NCBI RefSeq assembly: GCF_029892965.1
Contig: NZ_JARXWN010000007.1
Span: forward strand, 1-64,000
Source: Dysgonomonas sp. PF1-14
GTDB taxonomy: Bacteria; Bacteroidota; Bacteroidia; Bacteroidales; Dysgonomonadaceae
Reading direction: 5' to 3'
Length of the DNA stretch: 64,000 nucleotides
Positions 7,379 to 59,678 of the stretch are shown here, one piece after another (position 1 is the first letter of the stretch; each line of letters begins with the position of its first letter). The translations under genes and the position numbers were made by a program. The notes beneath the pieces were generated by a model. It worked only from the letters and a program-made list of their open reading frames with translations, ran no database searches and was not told where the DNA came from.

Positions 7379-7418
7379 TATATTTGCAACATTGTTTCAT
7401 TTACAGTATTGTTGCAAA
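7379..7418 (+). promoter_or_regulatory. Promoter and candidate Fur/Zur operator
   Basis: The -7 element TATATTTG (7379-7386) overlaps the left arm of a perfect 9-bp inverted repeat: TTTGCAACA (7383-7391) and TGTTGCAAA (7410-7418), 18 bases apart. The right arm abuts the ATG at 7419. This placement fits autorepression by the encoded metalloregulator. The operator role is inference. Confidence 0.55.
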
Positions 7419-7823
7419 ATGGATGCAGAACAAATATTAAAACATCATAACCTGAAAAATACGGGTTGCCGTAAGTTTATAATCAGCGAGTTATTGAATA
7501 ATGAGTCGGCTCTGTCCGAGCATGAGATTAAACAAGCCTTGCCCGATTTGTTCGATAGGGTTACTTTCTATCGTTCACTGAAAACGCTGGAGGAAAAAAG
7601 TATTATACATCGCATTATATTACACGATTCGACGGTGAAGTATGCTATCAACCGCGAAGCGTTGCTTCAGGACGATCATGCTCATTTTCATTGTTTGAAG
7701 TGTGATAGTGTAACTTGCCTTGAAACGGCTATGCCTGCTCCATCGGGGTTACCTGCCGGATTTACGGTCGATTCGGTCGATGTATTGCTAGAAGGTACAT
7801 GCCCCGAATGTAAGCAGAAATAA
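7419..7823 (+). CDS. Fur-family metalloregulator, probably zinc-sensing (Zur)
   Basis: A 134-residue cytoplasmic DNA-binding repressor. The winged-helix domain (~1-80) has the recognition helix DRVTFYRSLKTLEEK. The dimerisation domain has the metal-binding HAHFHCLKC (H87, H89, H91, C92, C95) and the second CXXC at C128-C131 (CPECKQK), the structural zinc site. I chose the ATG at 7419 because nine upstream in-frame codons would overlap the promoter and operator. Zur rather than Fur is inferred from the neighbouring His-rich metal receptor and the lack of iron genes nearby; Fur or PerR remain possible. Confidence 0.8.
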   Translation: MDAEQILKHHNLKNTGCRKFIISELLNNESALSEHEIKQALPDLFDRVTFYRSLKTLEEKSIIHRIILHDSTVKYAINREALLQDDHAHFHCLKCDSVTCLETAMPAPSGLPAGFTVDSVDVLLEGTCPECKQK

Positions 7824-8082
7824 ATGAATTATTTTTCGGAAACTTTATCAGTATGATGAGCGGAAAGCGTTTGTGTACTTGGTTAGCAGTTGTTCGAATC
7901 AAAGAAAAGTAATGAAATGAAAAAGTGATGAAAAACGTTATATTGACTCCGCTTGCTCTGTCAAACGTTGTTTCGTTACCTTTTTAGTTAAAAATCGTCT
8001 CACGCAAAGACGCAAAGACGCAAAAAAAGAGAATACTAGTCTGTAGAGGCGAATGATAATTGGCTACTGTCGAACGTTGTTT
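7824..8082. repeat. Spacer with short dispersed repeats upstream of the metal receptor
   Basis: Holds a partial copy of the end of repeat A: AACGTTGTTTCGTTAC at 7964-7979 followed by TTTTTAGTTAAAAAT, which recurs at 8073-8103. At about 8004-8025 it holds a CGCAAAGACGCAAAG unit like those around the GxxExxY gene. Positions 8051-8084 match, inverted, 28353-28386. No gene was seen. Confidence 0.6.
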
Positions 8083-8331
8083 CGTTACATTTTAGTTAAA
8101 ATTAGAGTTGCCTCCTGCTTTAGCTGGAGGATAAAATCAGGACAATAAATGAAAGGCTTTAGCCGAATACTTTGACTAAAGTCGTTTTCCTTACGACTCC
8201 TACCCACGCCTTAAAAGGCGTGGCAACTAATATAACCAGATATCCTGTACTACAGGGTGAAAGTAACAAAGAGTAGAAACAACGCGAAAGCATTACTTTC
8301 ATTACTTTTTAGTTAAAATAAATATTGAAAA
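8083..8331 (+). repeat. Structured repeat, copy A (inverted partner at 15875-16145)
   Basis: About 145 bases (8083-8228) are identical to the reverse complement of copy B, followed by about 70 nearly identical bases. TTTTAGTTAAAAT occurs near both ends. A 7-bp closing stem AGTTGCC (8106-8112) with GGCAACT (8222-8228) encloses hairpins: CCTCC/GGAGG (8111-8130), GGCT/AGCC (8155-8164), GTCGT/ACGAC (8181-8197) and CCACGCC/GGCGTGG (8204-8223). The end lies about 20-28 bases before the TonB receptor ATG, so it forms that gene's leader or displaces its promoter. Confidence 0.85.
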
Positions 8332-8350
8332 TTAAAATATATAAATTAAG

Positions 8351-10801
8351 ATGTTTAAGAATAGATTGTTAGGTATTGTAATTGTTTTATTATTATTCTC
8401 CGTTGCAAAGCTATCAGCCCAGTCATCTTGCAGTTTGTCGGGTACGGTAAAAGATGCCGAGAATGGGAAAGCGATAGCAGGAGCATCCGTCTCAGTTCAA
8501 AATACAACAGTCGGAGAAATAACCGACAGTCTTGGCTTTTTTAGTTTTTGCCATCTTGAAGAAAAGGAGTATGTATTGTACATAGATTTTATAGGTTATA
8601 AAAAAGACAGTGTTAAGGTTGATCTGTCTAAAGATATAACACATGTCGATATTCGCTTAATACCTGCCGATATAGCTCTTAATGAGGTGTTTGTGGATGT
8701 TAATACCTCAAGCGTTGCAAGAACTGTAATATATCGGGGGCCGCTTCTGGATAAGCCTGTTACTTCTTTTGCTCAGACACTGAATATTGTGCCCGGAGCT
8801 ACGGCTATGAGTATAGGGGCAGGAACGGCAAAGCCTGTTGTCAGAGGGCTTGGGTTCAATCGTGTAGCCGTTATCAATCGTGGTATAATACAACAAAACC
8901 AGCAATGGGGAGCCGATCATGGCATGGAAATCGGTCAGTTCGATGTATATGAAGCTACAATTCATAAAGGCCCCGATGCTTTATTATCAGGCTCATCGGC
9001 TACTACAGCTATAGAAATAGAGCCATATGGCTTCAAAGATAAAAGTAAGTATTTTGGTGGAGAAGCCGTATTGATGGGTGCGTCCAATAACGATATGCTC
9101 GGCGGTGCATTGATTGCCGAATGGCAGAAGGGAAATTGGTATGCAAGGGGTTCATATAGCTATAGGGATTATGCAGATTACAGAGTTCCTGCCGATTATT
9201 TTATTTATGAAGAAGAAAAGATGCCATTGCCGGATAAACGTGTGCCGAACACAGCAGGACGCGAACAAAGTGTATCCGGTACTTTAGGCTTTAGAAAAAA
9301 TAATATTACGACATACCTGAATATCAGCAATAACTATCAGAAAAACGGATTGTTTGAGTTATCACATGATCATGACGATCACGACCATGAAGGAGAAGAC
9401 GCAGATCATGACCATGATAGCGAGACTGATACATCTCATCGTAATATAGGATTGCCGTATTCTACATCGAATCATTTTGTAATAACCAATAATACAGAAT
9501 GGAAAAAGGATAAAAATACAAAATTGGAGGCAAGTACGGCATTTCAGAGCAATCACCGTCGCGAGTTTGAGCATTTCCACGAGCATTACGAAGGGCAGGC
9601 TGTACCGGCTACAGATGACGATCTGGCAGTAGATTTCAGGTTAAGGACATATTCAACCAATATACGCCTTTCTTTAGGTATGCAGAATAAATGGAAAAAT
9701 AATTTTAGTACCAATGTTGAATATCAACAGAACAGGATTGGCGGATTCGAATACTTTCTGCCACGTTACAATCAGGTATCGGGTGGTATTGCCTATACTT
9801 CCGGCTACGAAATTTCCGATAAATGGCTTCTGCTTGGAGGCGTCAGATACGATGCGGGGCATATGGATATAACAGGTTTCTATGATGAGGCACTGGCTTC
9901 TCATCTCAAGGAAGAAGGTTATGGAGCTCAATTGATACAGGATTATGCGCAGAGGGCCTATAATGTAAACCGTAATTTTGGTGGTGTTTCGGGGAGTGTT
10001 GGAGTCAGGTATAGGCCGATAAATGATTTAACAGTAAAGTTGAATCTGGGTAAAAGCTACCGGATGCCATCTGCAAATGAGTTGGGTGCTAATGGCTTGC
10101 ATCATGCTGCATTCAGATATGAAATAGGAAATCCAGATCTTGCCTCCGAACATGGCTATACAATGAATCTGGATATCGATCTGAGTAGGGATATAACAGG
10201 TTTGGATGGGCGCTATCATCCATTGCAGGTATCTCTTTATCCCTTTGTATATTATTATTCCAATTATATTTTTCTGCAAGCAGTGGATAACTCATCTGTT
10301 CAGCTTTACGAACAACAGCCTTATAAATATTCGCAAGCGAAAGCAATATACGGAGGAGGTGAATACCAGGTAAAATGGCGTATGATAGAAAAACTGGAGC
10401 TATCGACAAATGGCAGCCTTGTTTTGAACAAGAATCTCGACGATCACGAACCTTTACCATTTACGCCTCCGTTTACAATGACCAACGGGGTAATGTTTCT
10501 GAATAATAATATAAGCCGGAAAAAAATAAGTTATTACCAAATTAGTGCTACACACCGTTTGTTCGCCGATCAGAACAGGGTAGGGGCAGGAGAGGAAAAG
10601 ACAACAGGTGCGAACCTGTTCGACCTGAGTGCCGGAATAGTGTATAAAATAAATTCCAAATTATCTATAGATGTGAATATGCAGGTATTGAATATATTCG
10701 ATAAGCGTTACCTGAATCATATGAGCTTGTATCGCCGGATCAATATACCGGAGCAAGGGCGTAATTTTCAGCTGTTTTTGAGAATACCGTTTAGTACATA
10801 A
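8351..10801 (+). CDS. TonB-dependent outer-membrane receptor, probably for zinc or another metal
   Basis: An 816-residue outer-membrane receptor energised by TonB/ExbBD. After a signal peptide ending near AQS (~25) comes a carboxypeptidase-like regulatory domain (~27-110, SGTVKDAENGKAIAGASV), then the plug (~125-225, including GAGTAKPVVRGLG) and a 22-strand barrel ending in an aromatic-rich strand (NFQLFLRIPFST). An extracellular loop near residues 338-362 is packed with His and Asp (HDHDDHDHEGEDADHDHD), with a second His cluster near 404 (EHFHEHY). Such loops are typical of ZnuD-like metal receptors. It lies downstream of the Fur-family gene and upstream of a lipoprotein gene. Repeat A separates it from any older promoter. 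Confidence 0.85.
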   Translation: MFKNRLLGIVIVLLLFSVAKLSAQSSCSLSGTVKDAENGKAIAGASVSVQNTTVGEITDSLGFFSFCHLEEKEYVLYIDFIGYKKDSVKVDLSKDITHVDIRLIPADIALNEVFVDVNTSSVARTVIYRGPLLDKPVTSFAQTLNIVPGATAMSIGAGTAKPVVRGLGFNRVAVINRGIIQQNQQWGADHGMEIGQFDVYEATIHKGPDALLSGSSATTAIEIEPYGFKDKSKYFGGEAVLMGASNNDMLGGALIAEWQKGNWYARGSYSYRDYADYRVPADYFIYEEEKMPLPDKRVPNTAGREQSVSGTLGFRKNNITTYLNISNNYQKNGLFELSHDHDDHDHEGEDADHDHDSETDTSHRNIGLPYSTSNHFVITNNTEWKKDKNTKLEASTAFQSNHRREFEHFHEHYEGQAVPATDDDLAVDFRLRTYSTNIRLSLGMQNKWKNNFSTNVEYQQNRIGGFEYFLPRYNQVSGGIAYTSGYEISDKWLLLGGVRYDAGHMDITGFYDEALASHLKEEGYGAQLIQDYAQRAYNVNRNFGGVSGSVGVRYRPINDLTVKLNLGKSYRMPSANELGANGLHHAAFRYEIGNPDLASEHGYTMNLDIDLSRDITGLDGRYHPLQVSLYPFVYYYSNYIFLQAVDNSSVQLYEQQPYKYSQAKAIYGGGEYQVKWRMIEKLELSTNGSLVLNKNLDDHEPLPFTPPFTMTNGVMFLNNNISRKKISYYQISATHRLFADQNRVGAGEEKTTGANLFDLSAGIVYKINSKLSIDVNMQVLNIFDKRYLNHMSLYRRINIPEQGRNFQLFLRIPFST

Positions 10802-10855
10802 TCAGTAATTCGTCTTTTTATCGTATTTTCGTGTCTGTAATTTATAAGTTGGAAT

Positions 10856-11464
10856 ATGAGAAAATTCTGTTTTGCAATAATATTGTTTATTTTATTACCC
10901 CTCATTTATTTTTCATCATGTGAAAAAGGCGATGATTGGTCTGAAGAACGTCCTGTAATATCGGATATCAGGTTTAATGAGAGCGATACGCTTATGTACG
11001 GGCCTTCTGCTGCAGAAAAGACAGTCATATTAATAAATGACAGCTCGGTGATGAACCGTACGATGGATACTGCGATAGTAAGCCGATGGCTATATATAAC
11101 AGCTCATTTTTCAGGCAGTAACGATTTATCTTCTTTCAAAGTGGGCGGAATACTTACCTACAAGACCAAAGCAGGACTGGAGATAAAAGATACGATAATG
11201 CGTTTGGGACAAAGTATTTTTAATAAAAAAGATACATTGGTTTACAAGAACAAACTAATACAGATTCCCGATTCGCTGGATAGGACAATAGACGGAGTAT
11301 CGCATAGAGGAGGACTTCAGGAAGGAGAATACAAATTATCGATTTTATGCATGGATAAAGCAGGGAAAAAGAGCGACTCTATTCTTCATTCGGTAACTAT
11401 TTTACGAAGAGCTACTATATTAGCAGCTCGTCAGAAGCCTGTAGAAGAAATCCCACAGGAGTGA
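10856..11464 (+). CDS. Surface-type lipoprotein partnered with the metal receptor
   Basis: A 202-residue lipoprotein. The signal peptide ends in a lipobox-like FSSC (Cys ~22), followed by acidic residues (CEKGDDWSEE) resembling the export signal that sends Bacteroidota lipoproteins to the cell surface. The rest is beta-rich with no enzyme motif. A late segment, HRGGLQEGEYKLSILCMDKAGKKSD, resembles the DUF4625 family, which I recall only loosely. It follows the His-rich receptor by 54 bases on the same strand, suggesting one transcript and a metal-binding or accessory role. The function is not recognised. Confidence 0.65.
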   Translation: MRKFCFAIILFILLPLIYFSSCEKGDDWSEERPVISDIRFNESDTLMYGPSAAEKTVILINDSSVMNRTMDTAIVSRWLYITAHFSGSNDLSSFKVGGILTYKTKAGLEIKDTIMRLGQSIFNKKDTLVYKNKLIQIPDSLDRTIDGVSHRGGLQEGEYKLSILCMDKAGKKSDSILHSVTILRRATILAARQKPVEEIPQE

Positions 11465-11526
11465 TGGGGGAGATGTTTTTGTTTCAATTTATAGTTGTAG
11501 TATTAGTCTAGATTAACGATAATTTA

Positions 11527-11534
11527 TACTTTTG
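11527..11534 (+). promoter_or_regulatory. -7 promoter element for the second TonB receptor
   Basis: TACTTTTG matches TAnnTTTG, 33 bases before the ATG at 11568. The 103-base upstream gap is too short for a cobalamin riboswitch and none is seen. Confidence 0.55.
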
Positions 11535-11567
11535 CAGCGACATTTTTTATAAAATTAATTTATCAAA

Positions 11568-13586
11568 ATGAAACAAAAACATTTGAACCAACAACAAGCC
11601 TATCGTTTCAAACGATTTGTACGAAAGGCTTACAGTGCATTCAACAGTATGCACAGGCTGGTAAACATCGGAGTTGTTTCGGGTTGCGCGATCGCTTTTT
11701 TACCGACAGGTACGGTCTCAGCCCAGAAAACAGCCGATAGTGAACAACAGCAGAAAGTGATGGAGAAAGAGCTCGATGAAGTGATGGTCACAGCATCGCG
11801 GGTGGAGGCTCCTATCAATCAGGTAGCGAAGCTCGTTACAGTGATCACCCGTCAGGAGATAGAGCAGGCGCCCGTCCGAAGTATTCAGGATCTGTTAGTC
11901 TACGCCGCTAACATAGACGTAATACAAAGAGGCGGACACGGCGTTCAAGCCGATATCTCCATACGAGGAGGAACATTCGACCAAAATGTGATCTTACTCA
12001 ACGGAGTCAACCTATCTAATGCTCAAACAGGACACTACAGCTTCGACCTACCAGTCAACCTTTCCGATATCGAACGTATTGAAATCATTCATGGCTCTTC
12101 TGCCCTTATATACGGAGTCGGTGCATTTTCGGGAGGAATCAACATTATAACAAAGAAGGATGCGGACTATAAAGCCTATGCCAGTGTAGAAGTCGGTATG
12201 CACAAGCTTCGGGGCATGGAAGTACGTGGCGCAGCCCAAAAGGGACAGGCAACACATAGCCTTTCGGTAGGCTATAACGCTTCTGATGGCTATATCGCCA
12301 ATAGTGATTATGATATCTATAATGTGCTATGGCAAACCCGATTGAAGATGCAGGGCACATCTAAGCTCGATTTGCAGCTCGGGTATAATGACAAGCAATA
12401 CGGAGCTAATACCTTCTATTCAGCTAAGTTCCCCAATCAGTACGAGCGTACGAGTACATATATGGGATCGCTGAAAGGAGAGTTCGGCTCAACATTAAAG
12501 GTTATCCCGATTGTCTATTGGGACAGGCATCACGACCAGTTCGACTTGATAAAGGATACCGACAAAGGCCGCAACTATCATCGTAATGATACGTATGGCG
12601 CCAACCTTATCTTCATGTACACATCTAAGCTCGGGGTTACCAGTCTTGGTGGTGAGTTGCGAAAAGAAGACATGATGAGTACGGTGCTAGGTAAGCCAAT
12701 GGCTAAGCCTCACCGTAAATATAAAGTATATGACGACCGCACAAATACCAGTGTATCGCTGGAGCATACACTCAACCTTGAGCGAGTCGTACTATCGGCA
12801 GGAGTGCTGATGAACCACAATACATTGCTCGATGGGGAATATAACTTCTATCCGTCGGTCAGTCTGAGTTACCGCCCTATGGATGGGCTTAATATCTCTA
12901 CTTCATGGGGTAAATCGACCCGCCTGCCCACTTTCACCGATCTGTATTATACGACAGATACGCATGACGGCAACAGTGGCCTGAAACCGGAGAAGTCCGA
13001 ATCGCTGGAACTTGGTGTTAAGTATAAGAACGCTTTTGTGAATGCTTACATCACTGGCTTCCTGCTATGGGGCAGAGATATGATAGACTGGGTGCGGGTG
13101 AACGACAAATGGGCTTCGTGGAACCTTACCGAAGTCAATACGCAAGGGGTAGAAGCAGGAGTGAAGTTCCGCTTGGGAAGTGTACTCCCGGCATTTGGTG
13201 AGCAATCATCATTATCCCTTGATTATGCCCGTATGCATCAGTCAAATGATACCAAAGACCTTGTGTCTCTATATAGCCTTAACTATCTGCGTGATAAGTT
13301 CACTGTGGCATTCAATCACCAGATATACAAAGGCCTTTCTGCCGGTTGGTACTTCCGCTATCAGAAGCGGATGGGAGTGTACGAACGGTTCGAGAATCTG
13401 GAGAGTGCGGGGTACAGCCATTATCCGGCTTTCTCTACGCTCGACCTGAAACTGAATTACCAGTATCGGGACTTATCGTTCAATCTGAATCTGAATAACC
13501 TCTACGATACCCATTACTTCGATAAGGGTAATATACCTCAGTCGGGTTTCTGGCTGATGGGTGGTATCAGTTATACTTTCAGGTAG
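11568..13586 (+). CDS. TonB-dependent receptor, BtuB-like
   Basis: A 672-residue outer-membrane receptor with an unusually long basic N-terminus (~30 residues, FKRFVRKAYSAFNSMHR) before the hydrophobic signal core, cleaved near VSAQ. A TonB box-like ELDEVMVTASR (~70-80) leads into the plug (~85-200: VRSIQDLLVYAANIDVIQRGG, SIRGGTFDQNVILLNGVNLS, GVGAFSGGINIITKK). The barrel ends in GGISYTFR. This long basic leader and plug type recur in Bacteroidota BtuB paralogues. It faces btuF convergently, so a role in corrinoid uptake is likely. It lacks the cobalamin riboswitch carried by the other btuB. Another small siderophore-like ligand is possible. Confidence 0.75.
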   Translation: MKQKHLNQQQAYRFKRFVRKAYSAFNSMHRLVNIGVVSGCAIAFLPTGTVSAQKTADSEQQQKVMEKELDEVMVTASRVEAPINQVAKLVTVITRQEIEQAPVRSIQDLLVYAANIDVIQRGGHGVQADISIRGGTFDQNVILLNGVNLSNAQTGHYSFDLPVNLSDIERIEIIHGSSALIYGVGAFSGGINIITKKDADYKAYASVEVGMHKLRGMEVRGAAQKGQATHSLSVGYNASDGYIANSDYDIYNVLWQTRLKMQGTSKLDLQLGYNDKQYGANTFYSAKFPNQYERTSTYMGSLKGEFGSTLKVIPIVYWDRHHDQFDLIKDTDKGRNYHRNDTYGANLIFMYTSKLGVTSLGGELRKEDMMSTVLGKPMAKPHRKYKVYDDRTNTSVSLEHTLNLERVVLSAGVLMNHNTLLDGEYNFYPSVSLSYRPMDGLNISTSWGKSTRLPTFTDLYYTTDTHDGNSGLKPEKSESLELGVKYKNAFVNAYITGFLLWGRDMIDWVRVNDKWASWNLTEVNTQGVEAGVKFRLGSVLPAFGEQSSLSLDYARMHQSNDTKDLVSLYSLNYLRDKFTVAFNHQIYKGLSAGWYFRYQKRMGVYERFENLESAGYSHYPAFSTLDLKLNYQYRDLSFNLNLNNLYDTHYFDKGNIPQSGFWLMGGISYTFR

Positions 13587-13603
13587 ACATATATAGAGGA
13601 AAG

Positions 13604-13632
13604 AATAAGGCAGGAGTTATGCCTGCCTTATT
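13604..13632. terminator. Bidirectional terminator between the second receptor and btuF
   Basis: Arms AATAAGGCAGG and CCTGCCTTATT pair perfectly over 11 bp around a 7-base loop, between convergent genes with only 47 bases between their stops. Confidence 0.7.
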
Positions 13633-13633
13633 A

Positions 13634-14764
13634 TCACCTTAGCCTTTTATGATACCTTAATTCATATCCGGTGAATAGTTCCGGATGGAATATTGCAGCA
13701 AAGTCTTTCAGTATGTAATCGGGATGAATAGCCATATCTTCGAAGTAAGCCGAATAGCTGGTATTACATCCGTATATGCTCTTTTGCTTGAATGCTTTGA
13801 AGTATGAGTATTGCTTGAACTCTTTCTCCAGACTAGCATAGGTCAGATCTTCCGGCGAATTGTACTTAATGATCCATACATCGGCCTCTCCGGCCTTATC
13901 GAGTACAGCCTCGAACGACAGGGGCAGGAATGTAGTGGAATTGTCATCAGCCCAAATGTAAGCAGCGCCTGCATCGGCAAGCATATTTGCCATATAGCTT
14001 TTTCCGCCCGGCATATTCCAGTTGTTCTGGTATTTGGTATCGGTAAATGCCGAAGGCTTAGTAGCAGCGTTTTGTACAGCCTGTTTTATCTCATTGTAAT
14101 TCTTAACCGTAACGTCGAACAGTGAGTCAGCTTGCTGCTCTTTTCCTATAAACAGGGAATAGAAGCGAATCCACTCGGCACGTCCCAGCGGATCGGGCTC
14201 AGTATAATCGGGGATTTCTATTACCGGTATCTTTGTCTTATCTATGTTGCCATAGCTCATACCCGATATGGGTGATGCAAGTATGGCTTCGGGAGCCAGC
14301 ATTATCAGTTTTTCGATGTCCGGTTTCGATGCGTCTCCCAAATCTGTGATAGAGCCATTTTGTATGCCTTTGACTATATCCTCGAGCTTTACGTACTGAG
14401 GTTCGAAAACACCCTTTATGATGGAAGCATTATCCAGTTCTTTCAGTGTGGCACATTGTAGTGTGTTGTAAGCTGCTACGCCTTTTACAGGAACTTTTAC
14501 CACTGTTCCGGCAGGAAGATCGGCAGGGATATCTTTTTCCCTGTCAACAAGAATATACTTTTGCAACAGCTTCGTCGTATCCCAGGGATTGATAACGGCA
14601 ACTTCGGTGTAACCGGTATATTTCTTCACCTTGAATCCTTTTGCATAATGCACTTGATACTCTTCTCCGGAAAGTACCCCCTCTCCGGCAGGTTTGCTAT
14701 TGCCGCAGCCTGCCAGAAAGAGAGTAAGAAAGATTGAAAACAGTGTTAAATATAATTGTTTCAT
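13634..14764 (-). CDS. btuF: Cobalamin ABC transporter substrate-binding lipoprotein (BtuF-like)
   Basis: A 376-residue lipoprotein with lipobox LAGC (Cys ~20). No acidic run follows the cysteine, which fits a periplasm-facing protein. Two alpha/beta lobes joined by a helix are suggested by VKKYTGYTEVAVINPWD, the PEAILASPISGMSYGNIDKTKIPVIEIPDY segment and the later WNMPGGKSYMANMLADAGAAYIW, all typical of the class III binding-protein family used for B12 and haem/siderophores. It would pass corrinoid from the outer-membrane receptor to an ABC permease, but btuC and btuD are not in this window. It follows btuG by 10 bases and closes the riboswitch-led unit. Confidence 0.82.
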   Translation of the reverse strand: MKQLYLTLFSIFLTLFLAGCGNSKPAGEGVLSGEEYQVHYAKGFKVKKYTGYTEVAVINPWDTTKLLQKYILVDREKDIPADLPAGTVVKVPVKGVAAYNTLQCATLKELDNASIIKGVFEPQYVKLEDIVKGIQNGSITDLGDASKPDIEKLIMLAPEAILASPISGMSYGNIDKTKIPVIEIPDYTEPDPLGRAEWIRFYSLFIGKEQQADSLFDVTVKNYNEIKQAVQNAATKPSAFTDTKYQNNWNMPGGKSYMANMLADAGAAYIWADDNSTTFLPLSFEAVLDKAGEADVWIIKYNSPEDLTYASLEKEFKQYSYFKAFKQKSIYGCNTSYSAYFEDMAIHPDYILKDFAAIFHPELFTGYELRYHKRLR

Positions 14765-14774
14765 TATTTGGTAT

Positions 14775-15854
14775 TTACTTTATTCCCTTCAAGAAATAAG
14801 CTCCCATCGGATAGTAGCCTCCTGTACCGAATTTTGAAATGAGCTTACCTTCGGAGGAGAAGATATACATTTCACCCATACTGTTGTTGCGGTTTATACC
14901 TATATATATGTTTCGGGTTACAGGGTCTACAGTGAGGCTGTTTACATCTGCTACTTCTGTGCCGTCAGTAATGAACGACTTGTCTTCTATTTTACCGGTA
15001 TTGATGTCATAATAAGAGAAGTTAATGATGCTATTTATATAATCCAGTAGTATCAATAATATTCTATCTCCGTCTACAGCCATCAGGGTAGCTGCATTGG
15101 TAGCTATTTGCGTAACCTTATCGTTTGAGTCTATTTTGTTGAAGCTGGATGTAGTTGTTGCTGCATTAAAATCACCCCAACAGATAACATATACATTACC
15201 CTGAGCATCGCGGGTGATAACTGCCGGATTGTCATCAACAACAATGTCTTTCTTTTGTGCTGTAAAATTATTTAGGTTTAGTACAGAGACAATGTTGCTT
15301 CCCACACGGGAATTGGTTACATAGAGCTTATTGCCTACTATTGTCATCTCTTCTGTGAATGTTCCTACTTTCACCTTATCCATAGCCATAGATGTAGTGT
15401 CTATCCGTAATACGTATCCGGCTTCGGTACTAACATATACCTTACCATTGTTGGTAACTATCGATCGGGGACGCAATGGCTGCTTTGATTCATTCTCCGG
15501 AGATATAATGCCGTCTTTTACTAATTTAGCTCTACGGTTGGTGACATATATCTTGTTTGAATTGGTTACCGTTATATACATCTTGGAACCATATACTTTC
15601 ATATCTTGTACAGCATCGCCCAGAGACAGTCCGTCATTCATCTTAGAGAAGATGTCAGTCGTTACCTTCTTATTATCTATATCATAATATGCCAGATTCC
15701 CATCCACAGTTTTCATCATCCCCGAATTCAAAATATATGCTCCGGTAAGGTTTACTTCGGGTTCAACCCACGGTTCATCATCATCGTCCGAACACGATAT
15801 AAACGGAGCAGCTATAATGCTTAATAACAAGACTTTTAATAAATACTTTTTCAT
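14775..15854 (-). CDS. btuG: BtuG-like surface cobalamin-binding beta-propeller lipoprotein
   Basis: A 359-residue lipoprotein. The signal peptide ends at FISC (Cys ~21) and is followed by SDDDDE, the acidic export signal of surface-exposed Bacteroidota lipoproteins. The body repeats blade-like segments (GKVYVSTEAGYVLRID, NKLYVTNSRVGSNIVSVLNL, RNIYIGINRNNSMGEMYIF), as in YncE/DUF5074 propellers. In Bacteroides, BtuG captures B12 very tightly and sits over BtuB. Context supports this: btuF follows by 10 bases and a riboswitch-led btuB lies upstream. Repeat B occupies the 403-base gap to btuB and ends about 20 bases from this start. The functional assignment depends on fold and context. Confidence 0.78.
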   Translation of the reverse strand: MKKYLLKVLLLSIIAAPFISCSDDDDEPWVEPEVNLTGAYILNSGMMKTVDGNLAYYDIDNKKVTTDIFSKMNDGLSLGDAVQDMKVYGSKMYITVTNSNKIYVTNRRAKLVKDGIISPENESKQPLRPRSIVTNNGKVYVSTEAGYVLRIDTTSMAMDKVKVGTFTEEMTIVGNKLYVTNSRVGSNIVSVLNLNNFTAQKKDIVVDDNPAVITRDAQGNVYVICWGDFNAATTTSSFNKIDSNDKVTQIATNAATLMAVDGDRILLILLDYINSIINFSYYDINTGKIEDKSFITDGTEVADVNSLTVDPVTRNIYIGINRNNSMGEMYIFSSEGKLISKFGTGGYYPMGAYFLKGIK

Positions 15855-15874
15855 TTCTATATTATTTTTAAATG

Positions 15875-16145
15875 TTTATTTTAACTAAAATGTAACAACC
15901 AACGGTCACAGGAGCGAAGCGTATGTAAAAGTAATGCTTCCGCGTTGTTTCTACTCTTTGTTACTTTTCCTTGTAGTACAGGATATCTGGTTATATCAGT
16001 TGCCACGCCTTTTAAGGCGTGGGTAGGAGTCGTAAGGAAAACGACTTTAGTCAAAGTATTCGGCTAAAGCCTTTCATTTATTGTCCTGATTTTATCCTCC
16101 AGCTAAAGCAGGAGGCAACTCTAATTTTAACTAAAATGTAACGAA
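15875..16145 (-). repeat. Structured repeat, copy B (inverted partner of copy A)
   Basis: Reverse complement of copy A: identical over about 145 bases (within about 16000-16145), then nearly identical for about 70. Near its other end it carries about 35 bases absent from A (about 15893-15930) before TTTTAGTTAAAATAAA. It fills the gap between btuB and btuG and ends about 20 bases from the btuG ATG, in the same orientation to its downstream gene as copy A. The closing stem and hairpins are preserved. Confidence 0.85.
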
Positions 16146-16257
16146 TGTAACGAATTTCGCTTCTTTTTACTTTCATTACCTTTTTTGTTGTAAACCGTTT
16201 GCCAATCAGCATTAGCCGATATCTCTATAGATAATTATTTCCCGATCTCATCACAAA

Positions 16258-18261
16258 TCAAAACTTCATACCTACCGAAGCCTTGAACGAACGTCCGGGC
16301 ATCGGATAGTTGGCTATCACATCATATCTTTTGTTCCATATATTCAGTATATTTCCCTGTACATATATGGTATTGTTCTTTATCTCAAATTCACGAAACA
16401 GCGAAATATTGTGATCCGTATATCCGTCCACCTTATTTATCTTGTCGTTGAGCGGTAGCCTGTATCGCTTCGTTGCTGCTATTACCGAATATGAGAAGTT
16501 CACATAAGGATTGTTGAACGAAAGCGTAGCTGCACCCGAATGTTCTGGGGTATAAGGAATCTGGTCTTTATAGTTGTCGGCATCCTTATCCGTCACATCT
16601 TGCGCCTGCATAAAGCTATAGGTAACAGACAGGTTTATATCCATTCGCGAAGCAACGGCAAAATTGAGTGCAGCCCGCAAATCTATTCCTTTTATATCTA
16701 CATTGCCCAGATTCATCGTAGTGGCGATAAATGTTTTCGGGATAATCACGATCTTATCATCCACCTTATTGTAATAGCCATCTGCCGAAAGGCTGATAAA
16801 ATTTAACGGACTATCCTTTATTTCACCTACCCATGTCAGTCCCAGATTGAACTGTTGGGATGATTCGGGTTTCAGTATTTTTTCTACTGACGAATAATAC
16901 AGTTCGGTGAAAGTAGGTACACGATAAGTATGCTTGTACGAAGCTCTCACGCGCAGATTAGTAGCTTCGAACGGACGGTATGACAATGCTACAGCCGGAC
17001 TAAGTTTTTTGTATGTATTATTTTCTTTATTGTTCTTTACCTCTTCTGAAATATAGGTGCCCAACAGGCTCGAAGTAACGGTCAGATACCTGTTTTTGTA
17101 TTGAAAAGCTAAAGCCGACAACGAATTATACCGTTGAGGGTAGGGTAGGTTATCACCTGTTTGCTGATATCCGCTGAATTTGTTTTTCAGTTTGTTGTAG
17201 AATAAGTCCTCTGAAAAAGAAAATGAGATATTCGGGTTCAATGAATATAGCAGTGCATTCGACAGATAAGCTTCCTGCTCGCGGTACGTATTTCTTGTCT
17301 GCATACTGGCCTGATCGTCCTCGTATCGGGTGTAAGTATAATCGTATTTTGCCTGCGATTTCAGGCTGAATTTGCTGTTGAATGATTTATTATATGTCAC
17401 CTGTGTAAAGAAATTTCTGTCCCACAGGCGTTCGGCAGCATAGTCGTTACCTTTTACCACAGCACCCGGTAATCCGCGCTCCGAGTCGAAATAATATACT
17501 TTGGCTTTCAGTTGTCCCGCTTTACCGAAGTCACTGTATAGGTTCACTTCCGTACGGAATATGTCTACATCGCTGTTATTTCGCTTGCGGTCAGTCAGTA
17601 TTTTATCATCTTCCTGTTTGAATGGATAATTACCATCGGCACGTTGCCAGCTACCGTTTGCCGATAGTGAAAATGTATTGCTTAGTTTATGAGCATAGTC
17701 CAGCATTGGATTAAATAGTCCGAATGATCCGCCTGTAATACGTGCGTGTCCTTTATAATTGTAATTTGTAAAGTCGGGCATTGCTGTTTCCAGATTCAGC
17801 GTTCCCGCCGAAGCAAAGGCTTTTGCCGTTTGGAATATAACATCTGATTGTCCGATGTTGAGCGACACCATCGAAATATTGTCGAGGGCATACCGCCCTA
17901 TATCCACCTGTCCTGATTGTGTATTGCTTACCATTATTCCATCATAACTGATCGCTGTATGCTCGGCACCCATACCGCGTATGGCAACTGTTTTCAGTCC
18001 GCCTATTCCCCCGTAGTCTTTAAGGACTATTCCGTTGAATCGACGTACAGCATCAGACACCGATTGTATCCCCTCTTGCAGCAATTCCTCATTCGTGATT
18101 ACCTGCAATGGCGAAGTCGATAATGATACTGATGGCTTGGCGTTGGCAGATATTTCCACATCCGACAGCTTTTGCGTATGTATGCTATCGTTGATCTGTG
18201 CCTGTAACGACAGGCAACCTGTAAAAAGTAAAGCGGGAAGTAATTTAGTTCTTATCACCAT
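16258..18261 (-). CDS. btuB: TonB-dependent cobalamin receptor under B12 riboswitch control
   Basis: A 667-residue outer-membrane receptor. The signal peptide ends near LQAQ (~22). A TonB box-like LSDVEISA (~33-40) precedes the plug (~45-165), which has LLQEGIQSVSDAVRRFNGIVLKDYGG, TVAIRGMGAEHTAISYDGIMV and SAGTLNLET. The barrel closes with RSFKASVGMKF. The cobalamin riboswitch directly upstream (18374-18641) assigns it to corrinoid uptake, because such leaders shut off when adenosylcobalamin is abundant. It heads the unit btuB-btuG-btuF, although repeat B interrupts the spacing after btuB. The leader between riboswitch and ATG is about 110 bases. Confidence 0.9.
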   Translation of the reverse strand: MVIRTKLLPALLFTGCLSLQAQINDSIHTQKLSDVEISANAKPSVSLSTSPLQVITNEELLQEGIQSVSDAVRRFNGIVLKDYGGIGGLKTVAIRGMGAEHTAISYDGIMVSNTQSGQVDIGRYALDNISMVSLNIGQSDVIFQTAKAFASAGTLNLETAMPDFTNYNYKGHARITGGSFGLFNPMLDYAHKLSNTFSLSANGSWQRADGNYPFKQEDDKILTDRKRNNSDVDIFRTEVNLYSDFGKAGQLKAKVYYFDSERGLPGAVVKGNDYAAERLWDRNFFTQVTYNKSFNSKFSLKSQAKYDYTYTRYEDDQASMQTRNTYREQEAYLSNALLYSLNPNISFSFSEDLFYNKLKNKFSGYQQTGDNLPYPQRYNSLSALAFQYKNRYLTVTSSLLGTYISEEVKNNKENNTYKKLSPAVALSYRPFEATNLRVRASYKHTYRVPTFTELYYSSVEKILKPESSQQFNLGLTWVGEIKDSPLNFISLSADGYYNKVDDKIVIIPKTFIATTMNLGNVDIKGIDLRAALNFAVASRMDINLSVTYSFMQAQDVTDKDADNYKDQIPYTPEHSGAATLSFNNPYVNFSYSVIAATKRYRLPLNDKINKVDGYTDHNISLFREFEIKNNTIYVQGNILNIWNKRYDVIANYPMPGRSFKASVGMKF

Positions 18262-18373
18262 ATCAAAGCAATTGTTTCAGTGGACATTGCTTGCGGTAAG
18301 AACAAAGAAAAGAAGTGATTCCTTTACAGAGTTTCTTAAGCCTTATTCCTCGAAAGCTGTCCGAATATATACT

Positions 18374-18641
18374 TTGCAGGTCTTCTGACTTACTCCATCT
18401 TTGAGCATCCTTCCCAATATTCAGTTAACAGCGAGCAGTTAACAGTTAACAAAAATGATAACTATAACTGACGACTGATTACTGTCAATCAGTGGAACTG
18501 GTTTTGCTCAAGGACTTTTTTCAGTATTTATGTTAACTGATGACTGTTAACTGTTCACTGAAAAGAGCTTACAGCAGCGGGTCTGTTCAGGACTTACACC
18601 TGATTCCCTTTTCATCCGTTCTGACTTAACGTCTTGGAACA
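18374..18641 (-). ncRNA. Cobalamin riboswitch (enlarged)
   Basis: Read on the minus strand, it contains the B12-box region AAGGGAATCAGGTG...AGTCCTG...ACCCGCTGCTGTAA (within about 18568-18612) and ends in GTCAGAAGACCTGC (18375-18391), both diagnostic of the class. At about 268 nt it is longer than usual. The extra length comes from AACAGTTAAC-type repeats at about 18422-18450 and 18531-18560, which are mostly complementary (about 23 of 29) and could form a long peripheral stem. It controls btuB and probably the genes after it. Confidence 0.93.
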
Positions 18642-18649
18642 AAGCACTG

Positions 18650-18657
18650 CAAAGATA
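18650..18657 (-). promoter_or_regulatory. -7 promoter element for the riboswitch-btuB transcript
   Basis: Minus-strand TATCTTTG, exact TAnnTTTG match, just upstream of the riboswitch 5' end. Confidence 0.6.
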
Positions 18658-18721
18658 GGAATAATAGTTGTGATTTTTAAGGCAAACGTATCAAAATTAT
18701 TGGATTGTATTTGGATGCTTA

Positions 18722-18785
18722 TAGGGGCGGAATATCTTCCGCCCGCAGACTTTTTCTGTTTCGGGCGGAAGATATTCCGCCCCTA
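18722..18785. repeat. Perfect 24-bp inverted repeat of the GTAGGGGCG family
   Basis: Left arm 18722-18745 and right arm 18762-18785 are exact reverse complements around a 16-base loop. Each arm is itself palindromic (GGGCGGAA, four bases, TTCCGCCC). A related palindrome, GGGCGTAA-GATA-TTACGCCC then CCTAC, lies at 28477-28500. It could fold into a cruciform or strong RNA hairpin between the diverging btuB and aminotransferase transcripts. Confidence 0.85.
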
Positions 18786-18869
18786 CAAACGGTTAAAGCA
18801 ATTATGTTTATTTTCATGCGTTTGTCCTAAATTCATAATTCATAATTTATAATTCATAACTATTATTCC

Positions 18870-54935: not shown

Positions 54936-56435
54936 TTATCTTGTCAATACAGTAGGTACCCTTTGTTGTACAACAATAGAGCCGAGTTGGCGATAGGCGA
55001 TAGAACCCATACCGAATCCGACATAGCTGGTAGATGTATTGATATTGTTGACACCTGTAGTAAGTATAGTATGATTGAAGCCTATAGATGCTCCTGTGAA
55101 TTTTGTACCTCTATAAACGCCCTGACGGCTGATGGTCATAAGCCCACGCTGGTTGGCTACATTTCCTATACCCAACTGTCCGACGTTATTTTGTCCGGTA
55201 ACATATACATCTTTGGTAGTAACAATTACTATAGAACCGGTTCCGTAGATAAATCTTTGTGAAGCTATAGAGATTATCTCCTCATCGTCTTCGAGTATCA
55301 AAGTTAATTCGGTAGGCACCAGTAGATTGCCGCTTGGGTTGGCTACTCCGTTGCCATTACCCCAGCGATATACTTTTCTTGCTTCTTTGTCTAATGCTAT
55401 CCCTGTATGGTGCCCCATCGCTATTTGAGAAATTTTGGCGCCCGACGGAAAATTGATTTTCGTAGGTGTTGCCGTTACTCCTGTTGCTGCACCTACTCCC
55501 AGGCTGCCTGTAGTGGAAGTACCCCATACGAACACTTCTCCATCTTTGTTCAGTGCGGCAGCATTGCTGTGAGATGCCGAAATATCAACAATATCGGATA
55601 GAGTCGGTATCCAGGTAAATGTCTGATGTATTGCATTTGTCCCTGTGCGGTTTGCCGCCCCTGCGCTATATACTTTACCACTTTCGGTAAGAATGTATGA
55701 CGCTACTTCACCGGCTTCTACTTTTATGGCTTTACCATAAGGGTCGTCTACCAGGCCGGGTCCAAAACCTGGTACGCGCGAAGGTACGTTGGTTGTTGCG
55801 GTAGCGATGCCAAGTCCTGTGCGGTAACCTGCATTGCTGCCCCATATCCATACTTCGCCATCCATTGCAGCTGCAATGCCATGTTGATAACCGGCCGAAA
55901 CATCGACCACTGGCCGGGCAAACATCAGAGTAAATACTCCGGTACGGCCGGCAGTGCGTCCCAGTCCTGTTCTACAGTCAGCATTGGTTCCTGCTACCCA
56001 TATGGCATTGTCGTCTTGCCCGATAGCTAGGGTATAGTTGTATCCGTTAGAAGTTTCTTTAATCTTAAAGTCGGTACCCAGACTTAGTTTTTCACTGATA
56101 ATGCTTCTTAGTCCTTCGTTGTTCAACACACAATCAGACCAAGCTGTATCTCTTCTGAATTTTATACATCCGGCTGCTATATCGTATGCTATAGTTCCTG
56201 CAATAGGGTCTCCCCCTTGTGGGTTGATAACATCGGTGATAGTATCTACTCTAGGCAGAACCACTCCATAGGAAGATGAGTCAGCAGGATTGGTCATCGG
56301 TCTTACATCGAGTATGCCGAGCGGTTTTTTTGTGCCGATACCCATACCTATCTGGGCATAACCGGATACCGCAAAGCCGACAAGGATAAGCAGAAATGTA
56401 AGCTTTATTATATTACTATATTTCATCTTTGTCAT
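54936..56435 (-). CDS. Exported RCC1-repeat beta-propeller protein, third of three
   Basis: A 499-residue secreted or outer-surface protein. The signal peptide ends near GYAQ (~28). An N-terminal domain (~29-125) carries IGMGIGTKKPLGILDVRP, LPRVDTI and GTIAYDIAAGCIKFRRD, a pattern shared with the two upstream genes. Then RCC1-type blades follow: VDVSAGYQHGIAAAMDGEVWIWGSN, VDISASHSNAAALNKDGEVFVWG, ISQIAMGHHTGIALD. Most blades alternate a W-x-W-G strand with a TGLG turn. No lipobox. The start overlaps the previous stop by one base; a Met three codons later is an alternative. Function unknown: a ligand-binding or adhesive propeller is plausible. Confidence 0.8.
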   Translation of the reverse strand: MTKMKYSNIIKLTFLLILVGFAVSGYAQIGMGIGTKKPLGILDVRPMTNPADSSSYGVVLPRVDTITDVINPQGGDPIAGTIAYDIAAGCIKFRRDTAWSDCVLNNEGLRSIISEKLSLGTDFKIKETSNGYNYTLAIGQDDNAIWVAGTNADCRTGLGRTAGRTGVFTLMFARPVVDVSAGYQHGIAAAMDGEVWIWGSNAGYRTGLGIATATTNVPSRVPGFGPGLVDDPYGKAIKVEAGEVASYILTESGKVYSAGAANRTGTNAIHQTFTWIPTLSDIVDISASHSNAAALNKDGEVFVWGTSTTGSLGVGAATGVTATPTKINFPSGAKISQIAMGHHTGIALDKEARKVYRWGNGNGVANPSGNLLVPTELTLILEDDEEIISIASQRFIYGTGSIVIVTTKDVYVTGQNNVGQLGIGNVANQRGLMTISRQGVYRGTKFTGASIGFNHTILTTGVNNINTSTSYVGFGMGSIAYRQLGSIVVQQRVPTVLTR

Positions 56436-58033
56436 TATTTTTTTACTGTTGTGAATATTCGTTGATAGCCCCTGATTCCGTTACCTAAAGGATAATAATA
56501 ATTATAGCCGGCTCCGTACGCAAGATTATCCATAGCGTCATTCGTATTCGTTGTTGTCACAATAGTATGATAGTAGCCCATAGAAGCTTCAGTATAGGTA
56601 GTACCCGAAAAAACTGTATTATCCTGTATTTGAGTATAACCGGTGTAGCTGGATACCATGTTGCCTCCGGTTTCGGGATTCGCTATTCCTAGTCTACTAT
56701 AGAACGCATTGTAACCGGCAGAATAGATGCTGCGGTCTGTTACTATCATTGTGCCGGGCGAAGCCGCAATTCTGACAGAAGCAACACTGAGAATGGTTTC
56801 GTCTTCCTCCAGATTGAGAGTAGGGTTCGTAATCAGTTTAGGGAGTGATGTATAGACAGTACTTCCTGCAGGTCTTCCTATTCCATTGTAATAGCCCCAT
56901 CCATATACTTCGTTTTTGTCGGTCAAAGCTATGCAGCTCATCCCCATAGCGATGTCTGTGATTACATGGCTCGAAAGACCTGTAAGTAGCGTTGGTTGTG
57001 TTGTATATCCCCCTGTCAGACCCAAACCCGTTGCTCCATAGCCATTATAGCCCCATACGTACACATTCCCATCGGTAGTAAGTGCTGCTGTGGCAAGATA
57101 ACCCGAAACTACTTTTTTTATTTTCACATCTGACGGAATAGTCGCCATCTTGGTAGGTGTCAGTATATATCCGGCAGTAACACCATTTCCATTCAGTCCA
57201 TAGGCGTTATTCCCGCAAGAATATATTTCTCCGTTTTCAGTCACAAACCATGAATTTTCACGTCCGGCCACTACCTGTACTATTTTTACATCGTCAGGAA
57301 ACAATACCTTGGTAGGGCTCATCGTATAACCTGTGCGTATGCCTTGGCCGTTTCGTCCGTTGTAATTGTACCCCCACGTCCATACAGAACCATCGGCAAG
57401 CAACGCTGCACCGTGCAGATAACCGGCAGATACATCTACCGCCGGACCATCGAGAATCATTCCCCACCGGGCTATACCAGTATTTCCTTTTCCGGTTCTG
57501 TAATAACTTCCGAGCCCTGTAGAGTACACAGCTTCATCTTCAGCCCCTATGGCAATAGTAAAGTTATATCCTGCCGAGGCTTTTTTCAGTTTGAAATTAA
57601 CCCCTCCATAGAGATTATATTCTATTTCTTCTTCGGTCAGCGACTTGTCGACAAGGCATCCAGACCAACTATTTACTTCTTCCGTTTGTTTTACACGGAT
57701 ACATTTCATTCCCATATCGAAAACGACCGTCCCCGCAGGAACATCTTCTTCCGGTACCTCATAGTTGGTTACGGTTGTTTCTCCTTCTTCTGTTACTGTT
57801 TCTGTTACTATTTTAAATTTTCCCGTAGGCGTAGTCACAGAAGGGTAAAAGGCTCCATTTATACTATCGGGGTCTACATTCCCTATTAAGGGAAGTACCA
57901 GACCTTTATCATTTTTTGTGTCTTTGCGGTTGATGTCGAGTGCACCCTGTGGCTTAGGATTCCACATACCCACCTGCGAAAAGACCGGAAATGATAACAG
58001 AAGAGCCAGTAATAAATATATATATTTTTTCAT
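56435..58033 (-). CDS. Exported RCC1-repeat beta-propeller protein, second of three
   Basis: A 532-residue exported protein from MKKYIYLLLALLLSFPVFSQ (cleavage after FSQ). The N-terminal domain (~20-150) has VGMWNPKPQGALDINRK, LVLPLIG and GTVVFDMGMKCIRVKQTEE...WSGCLVDKS. RCC1 blades occupy ~155-500: VDVSAGYLHGAALLADGSVWTWGYN, IVQVVAGRENSWFVTENGEIYSCGNN, IKKVVSGYLATAALTTDGNVYVWGYN. The final blade ends RIFTTVKK. I chose the Met at 58033 since it starts directly at the signal peptide; one six codons upstream is possible. It overlaps the next gene by one base. Confidence 0.8.
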   Translation of the reverse strand: MKKYIYLLLALLLSFPVFSQVGMWNPKPQGALDINRKDTKNDKGLVLPLIGNVDPDSINGAFYPSVTTPTGKFKIVTETVTEEGETTVTNYEVPEEDVPAGTVVFDMGMKCIRVKQTEEVNSWSGCLVDKSLTEEEIEYNLYGGVNFKLKKASAGYNFTIAIGAEDEAVYSTGLGSYYRTGKGNTGIARWGMILDGPAVDVSAGYLHGAALLADGSVWTWGYNYNGRNGQGIRTGYTMSPTKVLFPDDVKIVQVVAGRENSWFVTENGEIYSCGNNAYGLNGNGVTAGYILTPTKMATIPSDVKIKKVVSGYLATAALTTDGNVYVWGYNGYGATGLGLTGGYTTQPTLLTGLSSHVITDIAMGMSCIALTDKNEVYGWGYYNGIGRPAGSTVYTSLPKLITNPTLNLEEDETILSVASVRIAASPGTMIVTDRSIYSAGYNAFYSRLGIANPETGGNMVSSYTGYTQIQDNTVFSGTTYTEASMGYYHTIVTTTNTNDAMDNLAYGAGYNYYYPLGNGIRGYQRIFTTVKK

Positions 58034-58055
58034 TTCTTTTACTTTTAGCATAATT

Positions 58056-59678
58056 TTATTTTTTCAGCAACACAGGGAAAGCGATAATACCTATACCCGA
58101 ATCCATTGCTCCTAGTTGGTTGTAGTTGATATATCCCATTCCATAGCCATATCCGCCACTATTGTCTTCGGGGTCTACAGTCTGCCTGAGTAATGAATGT
58201 CTGTATCCGATAGAAGCCGCATCGAACAGAGTGCCCGAATAAATGGCTTTATCGTATAAGGGCTGAAATCCGGAGAAAGCCTCATAGATAGGGCTGGTAG
58301 CAGCACCATTGCTTCCCGGAGAAAATTTCACTACAGTACTTGCTTTGAAGTAGCCAAGCCCCATTCGTTGAGCTTGTGTCGTATTGCCGGCTGCATATAT
58401 ATTTTTATTGGTTATCACAATGGATGAACCTATTATATTACTTGTCCCATCGAAACGTGAGGCAGCAATGGAGATGATATATTCATCGTCTTCCAAACCT
58501 TTTCCGCCATTTAGTTGAATTGTCACATCCTGAGGCGTTGCCATTGGCGATGCCGGTGTGGTGAGGATTCCATAAGCCGGAGTAGCACCCCATGCAAATA
58601 GTTTTTTTCCACTCGAAGTAACAGCAAGCCCATGATTACATCCCATAGCAATCATTTCTACCGTTTCGCTCGACAGTATTTGTTGAGGTGTTATATAAGA
58701 AGCCGTTAAAACACCTGTACCTAAGCGTCCATACTGTGTATTTCCCCACACATACATCTTGCCGTCTTCAGTTAGTGCTGCTGCACTATATTGCGACAGA
58801 GAAATGTCTTTAACACCTGCTAGCGATGCTATTACAGTAGGGGTAGTGATATTTCCGGTAATTGTTCCATTTCCATTCAGAGCCTGTGTGTTGCCACCAA
58901 AGGAATATACCTTCCCATCGTCTCCCAGTACTAACGAGTTTACCCATCCGGCTTCTACCCGCACAGCTTTTACTTTACCCGCTGCCCATGTACGTACTTT
59001 TTGGGGGAATACTCTGTTCTGGGTTACTCCCAGTCCGGTTCTATATACACCGCCATTTCCCCACGACCACAATTCTCCGGATTCGGTAGCTAATAGACCG
59101 TGTAAGTAGCCGGCAGATATGTCCTTAGTAGGTGCGGCAAATATAAGGGTAAATGTGGTTGCATTAGTGGCACTTCCTGTACCCAAGCGGCCATAAGAGC
59201 CCAACCCCGTAGCGTATACGGCATTGTCGTCTTGTCCAATGACCAGTGAAAATTCATATCCTGCCGATACTTTTTTGGTGCGTATATTCAGCCCTCCGAA
59301 GATATCGAAATCGAAGTAGTTAGAAATGGAGGAATTATCTACCAGTGCATTTTCCCAGTAGTCTGTTCCCCTTAGCCTGATACCTTGCTGGGATTTGTCG
59401 AAAACAATAGTTCCCGGTACCACATCACCTCCTTGTGGATTGATGATGCGGATGTCGCCTCCCATTATTGTATCTATCACGGGGAGGTTAAAACCCAGAT
59501 TCCTATTCACCGAATCGTTCAGGAAATGTACTCCCTGCAAATGTAAAGCCCCTTTGGGCTTTTTCACAGTATAGTCTTCTAAACCGCTGTTTGCCGGAAC
59601 ATTCGTGCCTATCCCTACTTGTGCAAAGGATAAAGACGAAATGAACAGCAACAACAGTAGGTTGAAAATTTTATTCAT
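58056..59678 (-). CDS. Exported RCC1-repeat beta-propeller protein, first of three
   Basis: A 540-residue exported protein. The signal peptide ends near LSFAQ (~20). The N-terminal domain (~21-150) has VGIGTNVPANSGLED, KGALHLQGVHFLN, LPVIDTI, INPQGGDVVPGTIVFD and GIRLRGTDYWENALVDNS. RCC1 blades (~155-500) include KDISAGYLHGLLATESGELWSWGN, VKAVRVEAGWVNSLVLGDDGKVYSFGG, VKDISLSQYSAAALTEDGKMYVWG and EMIAMGCNHGLAV. The three propellers are alike in order and ending (GIIAFPVLLKK here), so they arose by tandem duplication. The gap to the upstream 227-residue gene is 145 bases. Confidence 0.82.
   Translation of the reverse strand: MNKIFNLLLLLFISSLSFAQVGIGTNVPANSGLEDYTVKKPKGALHLQGVHFLNDSVNRNLGFNLPVIDTIMGGDIRIINPQGGDVVPGTIVFDKSQQGIRLRGTDYWENALVDNSSISNYFDFDIFGGLNIRTKKVSAGYEFSLVIGQDDNAVYATGLGSYGRLGTGSATNATTFTLIFAAPTKDISAGYLHGLLATESGELWSWGNGGVYRTGLGVTQNRVFPQKVRTWAAGKVKAVRVEAGWVNSLVLGDDGKVYSFGGNTQALNGNGTITGNITTPTVIASLAGVKDISLSQYSAAALTEDGKMYVWGNTQYGRLGTGVLTASYITPQQILSSETVEMIAMGCNHGLAVTSSGKKLFAWGATPAYGILTTPASPMATPQDVTIQLNGGKGLEDDEYIISIAASRFDGTSNIIGSSIVITNKNIYAAGNTTQAQRMGLGYFKASTVVKFSPGSNGAATSPIYEAFSGFQPLYDKAIYSGTLFDAASIGYRHSLLRQTVDPEDNSGGYGYGMGYINYNQLGAMDSGIGIIAFPVLLKK

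Follow-up and report, generated by a model that had tools for sequence, protein, structure and literature searches.

In a 64,000-nucleotide (nt) stretch of a Dysgonomonas sp. PF1-14 contig (hereafter the window), two nearly identical repeats, A and B, lie in inverted orientation on either side of a 7.5 kb nutrient-uptake island that carries two TonB-dependent receptor genes as well as btuF-like and btuG-like genes. We read A and B, with a probability of roughly 80%, as two gene-less copies of a dispersed two-hairpin element of about 127 nt, comparable to REPINs (repetitive extragenic palindromic, or REP, doublets forming hairpins) and BIMEs (bacterial interspersed mosaic elements), which is present in about 80 copies in the genome, with the island between A and B standing in its ancestral orientation. 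The two repeats and their cores are located as follows.

8081..8319, forward strand: repeat A, a composite of core and linker lying between direct TTACWTTTTAGTTAAAAT modules
8106..8232, forward strand: core element A, with the termini AGTTGCC...GGCAACT, scoring 127.3 bits with covariance model R1, with a single-strand DNA fold z of -3.5
8111-8130 and 8204-8223: hairpins of core A, with covariation over 33 copies
15876..16147, reverse strand: repeat B, a composite copy inverted relative to A
15994..16120, reverse strand: core element B, scoring 126.0 bits with R1, 99.2% identical to core A, with a fold z of -3.3
16096-16115 and 16003-16022: hairpins of core B

Comparison of the window with itself gives main arms at 8081-8257 and 15969-16145 (177 nt, 99% complementary) and a collinear second pair at 8260-8299 and 15928-15967 (40 nt, 98%), with a weaker pairing (63 nt, 73%) that extends the arms to 8364 and 15833. 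When a 240-nt repeat query was used, A and B were 98% identical over 219 nt. This likeness is far beyond chance, and it agrees with the estimate in an earlier note on this DNA, which had described two near-identical inverted copies. The same query found at least 68 matching places in the genome (40 of the 146 candidates scored), which comprises 4.58 Mb in 49 contigs.

We aligned 33 copies of the repeat, 24 from this genome and nine from six genomes of the same genus, leaving out L005, L006, L009, L019, L026, L027, L117, L118, L120, L123, and L124, mostly as near-duplicates. The aligned copies have in common a core of about 127 nt with the conserved termini TTGCC and GGCAA, a left hairpin of the form CCTCC..GGAGG, a central GGCTTTAGCC / GACTAAAGTC part, and the right hairpin CCACGMCTTAAAAGKCGTGG. 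Both terminal hairpins carry compensatory changes. Hairpin cells are paired in 94.8% of cases, compared with 89.1% in shuffled alignments and no more than 45.7% when partners are slid, a control in which the structure is favored by having been read from the same 33 sequences. Changes on both sides of a stem were counted at 8 pairs (3.8 in the shuffles) and in 37 cells (11.3 in the shuffles), with 0 of 500 shuffles reaching either value; with the outer and long central pairings included, the counts were 9 pairs (reached by 7 of 500 shuffles) and 45 cells (0 of 500). The covariance model R1, built from the core without any transposase flank, yields 139 matches in the genome, or 80 distinct copies once the two strands of the near-palindrome are merged. 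Within the window it scores A at 127 and B at 126 bits, each also being matched on the opposite strand, and its two other matching places (E 0.15 and 0.28) are at noise level.

The copies are found mostly between genes. Using a simple custom open reading frame (ORF) caller, we classified 79 of them, the 80th being too close to a contig end; 76 are intergenic and three overlap short ORFs. Copies lie between co-directional genes in 51 cases (33 sense and 18 antisense to transcription), between convergent genes in 16, and between divergent genes in nine. Four copies form a tandem array with 189-nt spacing at C10:13610-14303. Inverted pairs of copies within 8.5 kb of one another number 11, compared with 6.0 (standard deviation 2.4) under random scatter of 80 copies.

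Within this family, the identity of A to B (0.992) is the joint highest among 3,160 copy pairs, tied with a pair inside the tandem array. Across all pairs the median is 0.70; the inverted neighbor pair that comes next reaches 0.77. The unlinked C2:46728 copy shares 97.6% identity with A and is composite in the same way. Given the closeness of A to B and of C2:46728 to A, A and B are therefore recent relatives, a similarity that local copying or conversion would account for. Their flanks are mosaic: the left flank of C2:46728 resembles the left flank of A, its right flank matches that of B, and about 30 nt of B that are absent from A are common to the C2:46728 copy. A pattern of this kind suggests conversion or module shuffling. 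We considered and rejected the idea that it is the scar of a past inversion, because arriving at the ancestral order takes an even number of inversions, after which both flanks would be restored.

The element is physically linked to a transposase gene. A single gene in the genome scores above the Y1_Tnp cut-off (C8:49545-49964; PF01797, 93.2 bits), encoding a 140 aa protein with the motifs YIMKQEEHH (signature Y---Q--HH), DHCH, and WQ, and it has a full copy of the element about 23 nt before its start and a partial copy 2 nt past its stop. A relative of this transposase, 73% identical, is flanked likewise in genome G003. Across the order Bacteroidales, 223 of 393 genomes searched contain a match to the transposase at E ≤ 0.001. 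From these searches we took the 31 loci of the best matches as a close set (L127, L128, and L144-L172) and 15 same-genus Y1 genes as a distant set (L129-L143). At E ≤ 0.05, R1 matches the flanks of all 31 close loci and of none of the 15 distant loci, two of which (L142 and L135) give a match only at E 0.2. The match is on both sides at 24 close loci, L154 and L158 among them, and on one side at L144, L147, L149, L163, L164, L165, and L169. The signature Y---Q--HH is present in all 31 close proteins and in 12 of the 15 distant ones, the remaining three being partial matches. A genome-wide R1 scan, with stricter filters and with both strands counted, found matches in 17 of 18 genomes picked for having a close transposase (the exception is G331) and in none of 15 picked for having none; of nine further same-genus genomes without a close transposase, three (G005, G010, and G002) also gave no match.

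Several R1 matches spaced about 200 nt apart were observed beside the transposase gene of L146 (G398, 468-2185), an array beside a putative mover. A second Y1-type gene in the genome, the RAYT-like (REP-associated tyrosine transposase-like) C4:268925-269407, was considered as a partner and rejected, no R1 copy being found within its stretch; it scores below the cut-off of the REP_Tyr_transpos profile and has one internal TAG. Inside its own frame it harbors inverted GGGTCGAAAATATTCGACCC-type hairpins (L088, 1501-1983), which are different from those of the core and recall the REP inserted in a gene that is tabulated for subclass 2.4 in PMC6006769.

The element is most likely mobilized by the 140 aa Y1 protein, as has been proposed for REPINs and RAYTs (PMC3116915). 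The Y1 protein would cut the hairpins of the single-stranded element, and gene-less copies would be moved in trans as single-stranded DNA, with two of them landing between the fur and metal receptor genes and between btuB and btuG. The genes and other features at these sites are listed below.

7392..7823, forward strand: Fur-family regulator gene, upstream neighbor of A (PF01475, 39.7 bits)
8351..10801, forward strand: TonB-dependent receptor gene, a putative metal receptor (PF00593, PF13715, PF07715) with a His/Asp-rich stretch read from the sequence
10856..11464, forward strand: lipoprotein-like ORF with no Pfam match, kept between the two receptor genes in relatives
11568..13586, forward strand: second TonB-dependent receptor gene (PF00593, PF07715), the BtuB-like receptor of the earlier note
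13634..14764, reverse strand: gene for a btuF-like periplasmic binding protein (Peripla_BP_2, PF01497)
14775..15854, reverse strand: gene for a btuG-like surface lipoprotein (DUF5074, PF16819), downstream neighbor of B; best PDB sequence match 8blw chain B, E 5e-33
16258..18261, reverse strand: btuB, upstream neighbor of B and outside the arms; best PDB match 8blw chain A, vitamin B12 transporter BtuB1, E 4e-152
18358..18659, reverse strand: cobalamin riboswitch heading btuB-btuG-btuF (RF00174, 65.4 bits)

Just upstream of the riboswitch there is a different REP-like hairpin pair, GGGGCGGAATATCTTCCGCCC, with two inverted copies 18 nt apart at 18719-18788; the exact hairpin has no other occurrence in the genome. 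Elsewhere in the window, three adjacent genes encode RCC1-repeat proteins of about 500-540 aa each (54936-59678). A and B are each flanked by co-directional genes and oriented with transcription; their mutual inversion results from the facing directions of the two operons.

For comparison with relatives, 17 stretches anchored on btuG were taken from 55 matching genomes among 61 searched. The complete set of fur, receptor, lipoprotein, second TonB receptor, btuF, btuG, and btuB is present in four of them (L093, L094, L101, and L104), all with the order and orientation of the window, the other stretches being without one or more parts. With the first ATG of the longest btuG ORF taken as its start, the gap between btuB and btuG spans 17-83 nt in all 16 relatives with both genes and 403 nt in the window; in the 17th locus, L092, no btuB appears before the contig end. 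The fur gene adjoins the receptor gene in six loci, the four with complete islands plus L065 and L066. Its gap to the receptor is 19, 65, 66, and 227 nt in four loci and 527 nt in the window, the end of fur being poorly placed in L065 and L101 by an interrupted frame (L101 from G005, 2326-2769, with stops; L065, 6215-6655, with an early stop). No copy of the element was found by BLAST in 43 relative loci, and R1 gave no match up to E 1 in 55 other Bacteroidales loci totaling 615,687 bases, among them the complete islands (the places of L102 and L103 being covered by the stretches L049 and L051). The element being absent from these junctions in relatives, A and B therefore entered two pre-existing junctions, and the island between them is, judging from gene order, in its ancestral orientation.

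Several observations weigh against this reading or against its mobile-element part. Some of the flank matches at the close loci are weak (to E 0.041), and since R1 is aligned over its full length, its matches may reach as much as about 80 nt into the gene ends. The few matches in several of the 17 genomes with R1 matches may represent nothing beyond the transposase flanks, and G331 has a close transposase and still no match in the stricter genome scan. Conversely, four same-genus genomes without a close transposase hold many copies, with 82 R1 matches in G018 (82 candidates scored), 34 in G012, 36 in G016, and 21 in G007; Y1 matches in G018 and G012 are 27-31% identical, and in G016 and G007 they are absent. 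G011 and G019 have two matches each, likewise without a close transposase. The joint most similar pair of copies being neighbors hints at local copying or gene conversion as opposed to random landing, and the orientation bias between co-directional genes is weak, four of the 33 sense copies belonging to one tandem array. Finally, another enzyme may move the copies in G018.

That last point leads to the possibility that a transposase acting on terminal inverted repeats is the main mover of the element, as a miniature inverted-repeat transposable element, with the core as cargo and the Y1 gene as a preferred landing place. In eight of ten stretches from G018, the core is embedded in a unit with 18-nt AGAGTTTATATTCAATAA terminal inverted repeats (the other two contain no exact core string), so a second mover is possible there, and similar outer repeats are visible in copies from G012 and G007. 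The nested cores of L223-L230 in G018 are near-identical, seemingly a recent burst in an assembly without a close Y1 transposase. Nevertheless, we consider this explanation improbable: the AGAGTTTATATTCAATAA repeat has no match near A or B even with up to three mismatches, its inner ten bases occur at just two of 78 copy loci in the Dysgonomonas sp. PF1-14 genome, and copies adjoin the Y1 gene on either side, both here and in most of the 31 close relatives, but not at the 15 distant Y1 genes.

An RNA role is unlikely to about the same degree. Here the elements would be kept as intercistronic hairpins that adjust mRNA stability or the expression of downstream genes in both operons, which would fit the sense orientation of A and B between co-directional genes, the sense orientation of 33 of the 51 copies found in gaps of this kind, and the compensatory changes in the stems. 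However, the same gene pairs occur in relatives without the elements, selection as a transposition substrate would likewise conserve the hairpins, and the sense-strand bias is too weak to be taken as proof, for which reason we rejected it as such. No intrinsic terminator-like site was found on the sense strand inside either core; one weak sense-strand site, at 16286-16258, is at the end of btuB. As for promoters, none of the five window matches to a Bacteroidetes-type pattern falls inside the repeats, five being within chance, and sigma-70-type matches in both repeat regions are somewhat above shuffles (4 against 1.9 and 5 against 1.4).

The earlier note had proposed that recombination between A and B could flip the island and so exchange the regulation of zinc and cobalamin uptake. 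Its gene identities are borne out by the Pfam, riboswitch, and PDB sequence matches, and its geometry is correct: an inversion would place btuG and btuF behind the Fur-family gene and the metal receptor behind btuB. In its favor are inverted arms of 177 nt at 99%, the intergenic position of both breakpoints, and the joint highest identity among all copy pairs, as arm exchange or conversion would yield; with that identity, A and B are an adequate substrate for rare homologous recombination. The switch itself is not supported. The gene-order comparison that the note had suggested as a check returned the window's order, without the repeat, in all four complete islands, so that a single orientation has been seen in the assembly and in every relative with the whole island. 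An inversion would part btuG from btuB, which are adjacent in all 16 relatives with both genes; in Bacteroides thetaiotaomicron, BtuG is always beside BtuB and forms a stable complex with it, according to PMC10404256. The repeat belongs to a dispersed family, with an unlinked member nearly as close to A as B is, and Pfam detected no site-specific recombinase among the 50 window proteins, the set that was searched. In L092, the lipoprotein and second TonB receptor genes follow btuG-btuF on the same strand, an order that we rejected as a product of A/B inversion because such an inversion would keep these genes convergent. On conserved gene order, repeat dispersal, and the lack of a recombinase in the window, we thus set aside an invertible, control-swapping island as very improbable, since an A/B inversion would at most be an occasional RecA-dependent accident, one that parts btuG from its btuB neighbor.

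Bacteroides invertons and other phase-variable inversions are known systems in which inverted repeats likewise surround a segment. Unlike in those systems, there is no inversion evidence here, the repeat is a dispersed family, and gene order is conserved in relatives. Reading A and B as scattered copies of a two-hairpin element replaces an attractive but unsupported switch with a concrete mobile-element family, and it carries a caution, namely that in such genomes the inverted repeats framing a gene island can simply be scattered elements, as the 11 close inverted pairs illustrate.

Among mobile elements, those described here most resemble REPINs and their RAYTs, which, according to PMC3116915, likewise comprise two inverted hairpin units with a spacer, are intergenic and high-copy, form tandem arrays, show compensatory changes, and adjoin a Y1 transposase gene. 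High-copy intergenic two-hairpin units and a physically linked Y1 tyrosine transposase gene are both found here, and the array on C10 resembles ordered REPIN clusters. REP elements carry a GTAG (or CGTC) tag at one end, per PMC3733652; the present element ends in TTGCC/GGCAA without such a tag, and we therefore call it REPIN-like and not a GTAG REP. The enzymes differ as well, the linked protein having Y---Q--HH where the TnpAREP class has Y---NP (motifs from PMC6006769). IS200/IS605 insertion sequences and their non-autonomous derivatives likewise place a small HUH transposase gene between hairpins and have short gene-less copies elsewhere; here, in contrast, the tyrosine motif and flank structure differ from those of subclass 1.1, and gene-less copies outnumber the gene 80 to 1.

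By its motifs (Y---Q--HH, HUH, and WQ), and not by the authors' profiles, the 140 aa protein is assigned to the subclass 1.2 TnpAY1 proteins of that 2018 survey, which are small Y1 enzymes of Bacteroidetes with DH-u-H, WQ, and Y---Q--HH. The survey describes subclass 1.2 as present in low copy number, as generally devoid of typical terminal structures, and as different in its properties from insertion sequences (PMC6006769). Here, structured and dispersed elements flank the gene, and they do so on at least one side at all 31 close loci, while the 15 distant loci, scored for this element alone, show none of it. Our literature search found no account of this element or of subclass 1.2 terminal structures, which is no proof of absence. 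With subclass 1.2 described as generally lacking terminal structures and this element in the flanks, the element is therefore a candidate partner of what has been an orphan group of enzymes, and a transposase subclass described without a recognizable DNA partner gains a testable one in many Bacteroidales. We cautiously favor the view that the little-studied Y---Q--HH Y1 transposases of Bacteroidales represent a third partnership of hairpin and transposase, next to IS200/IS605 and GTAG REP/RAYT, one that would recognize a TTGCC-footed two-hairpin element whose gene-less copies spread in REPIN fashion through Dysgonomonas-type genomes.

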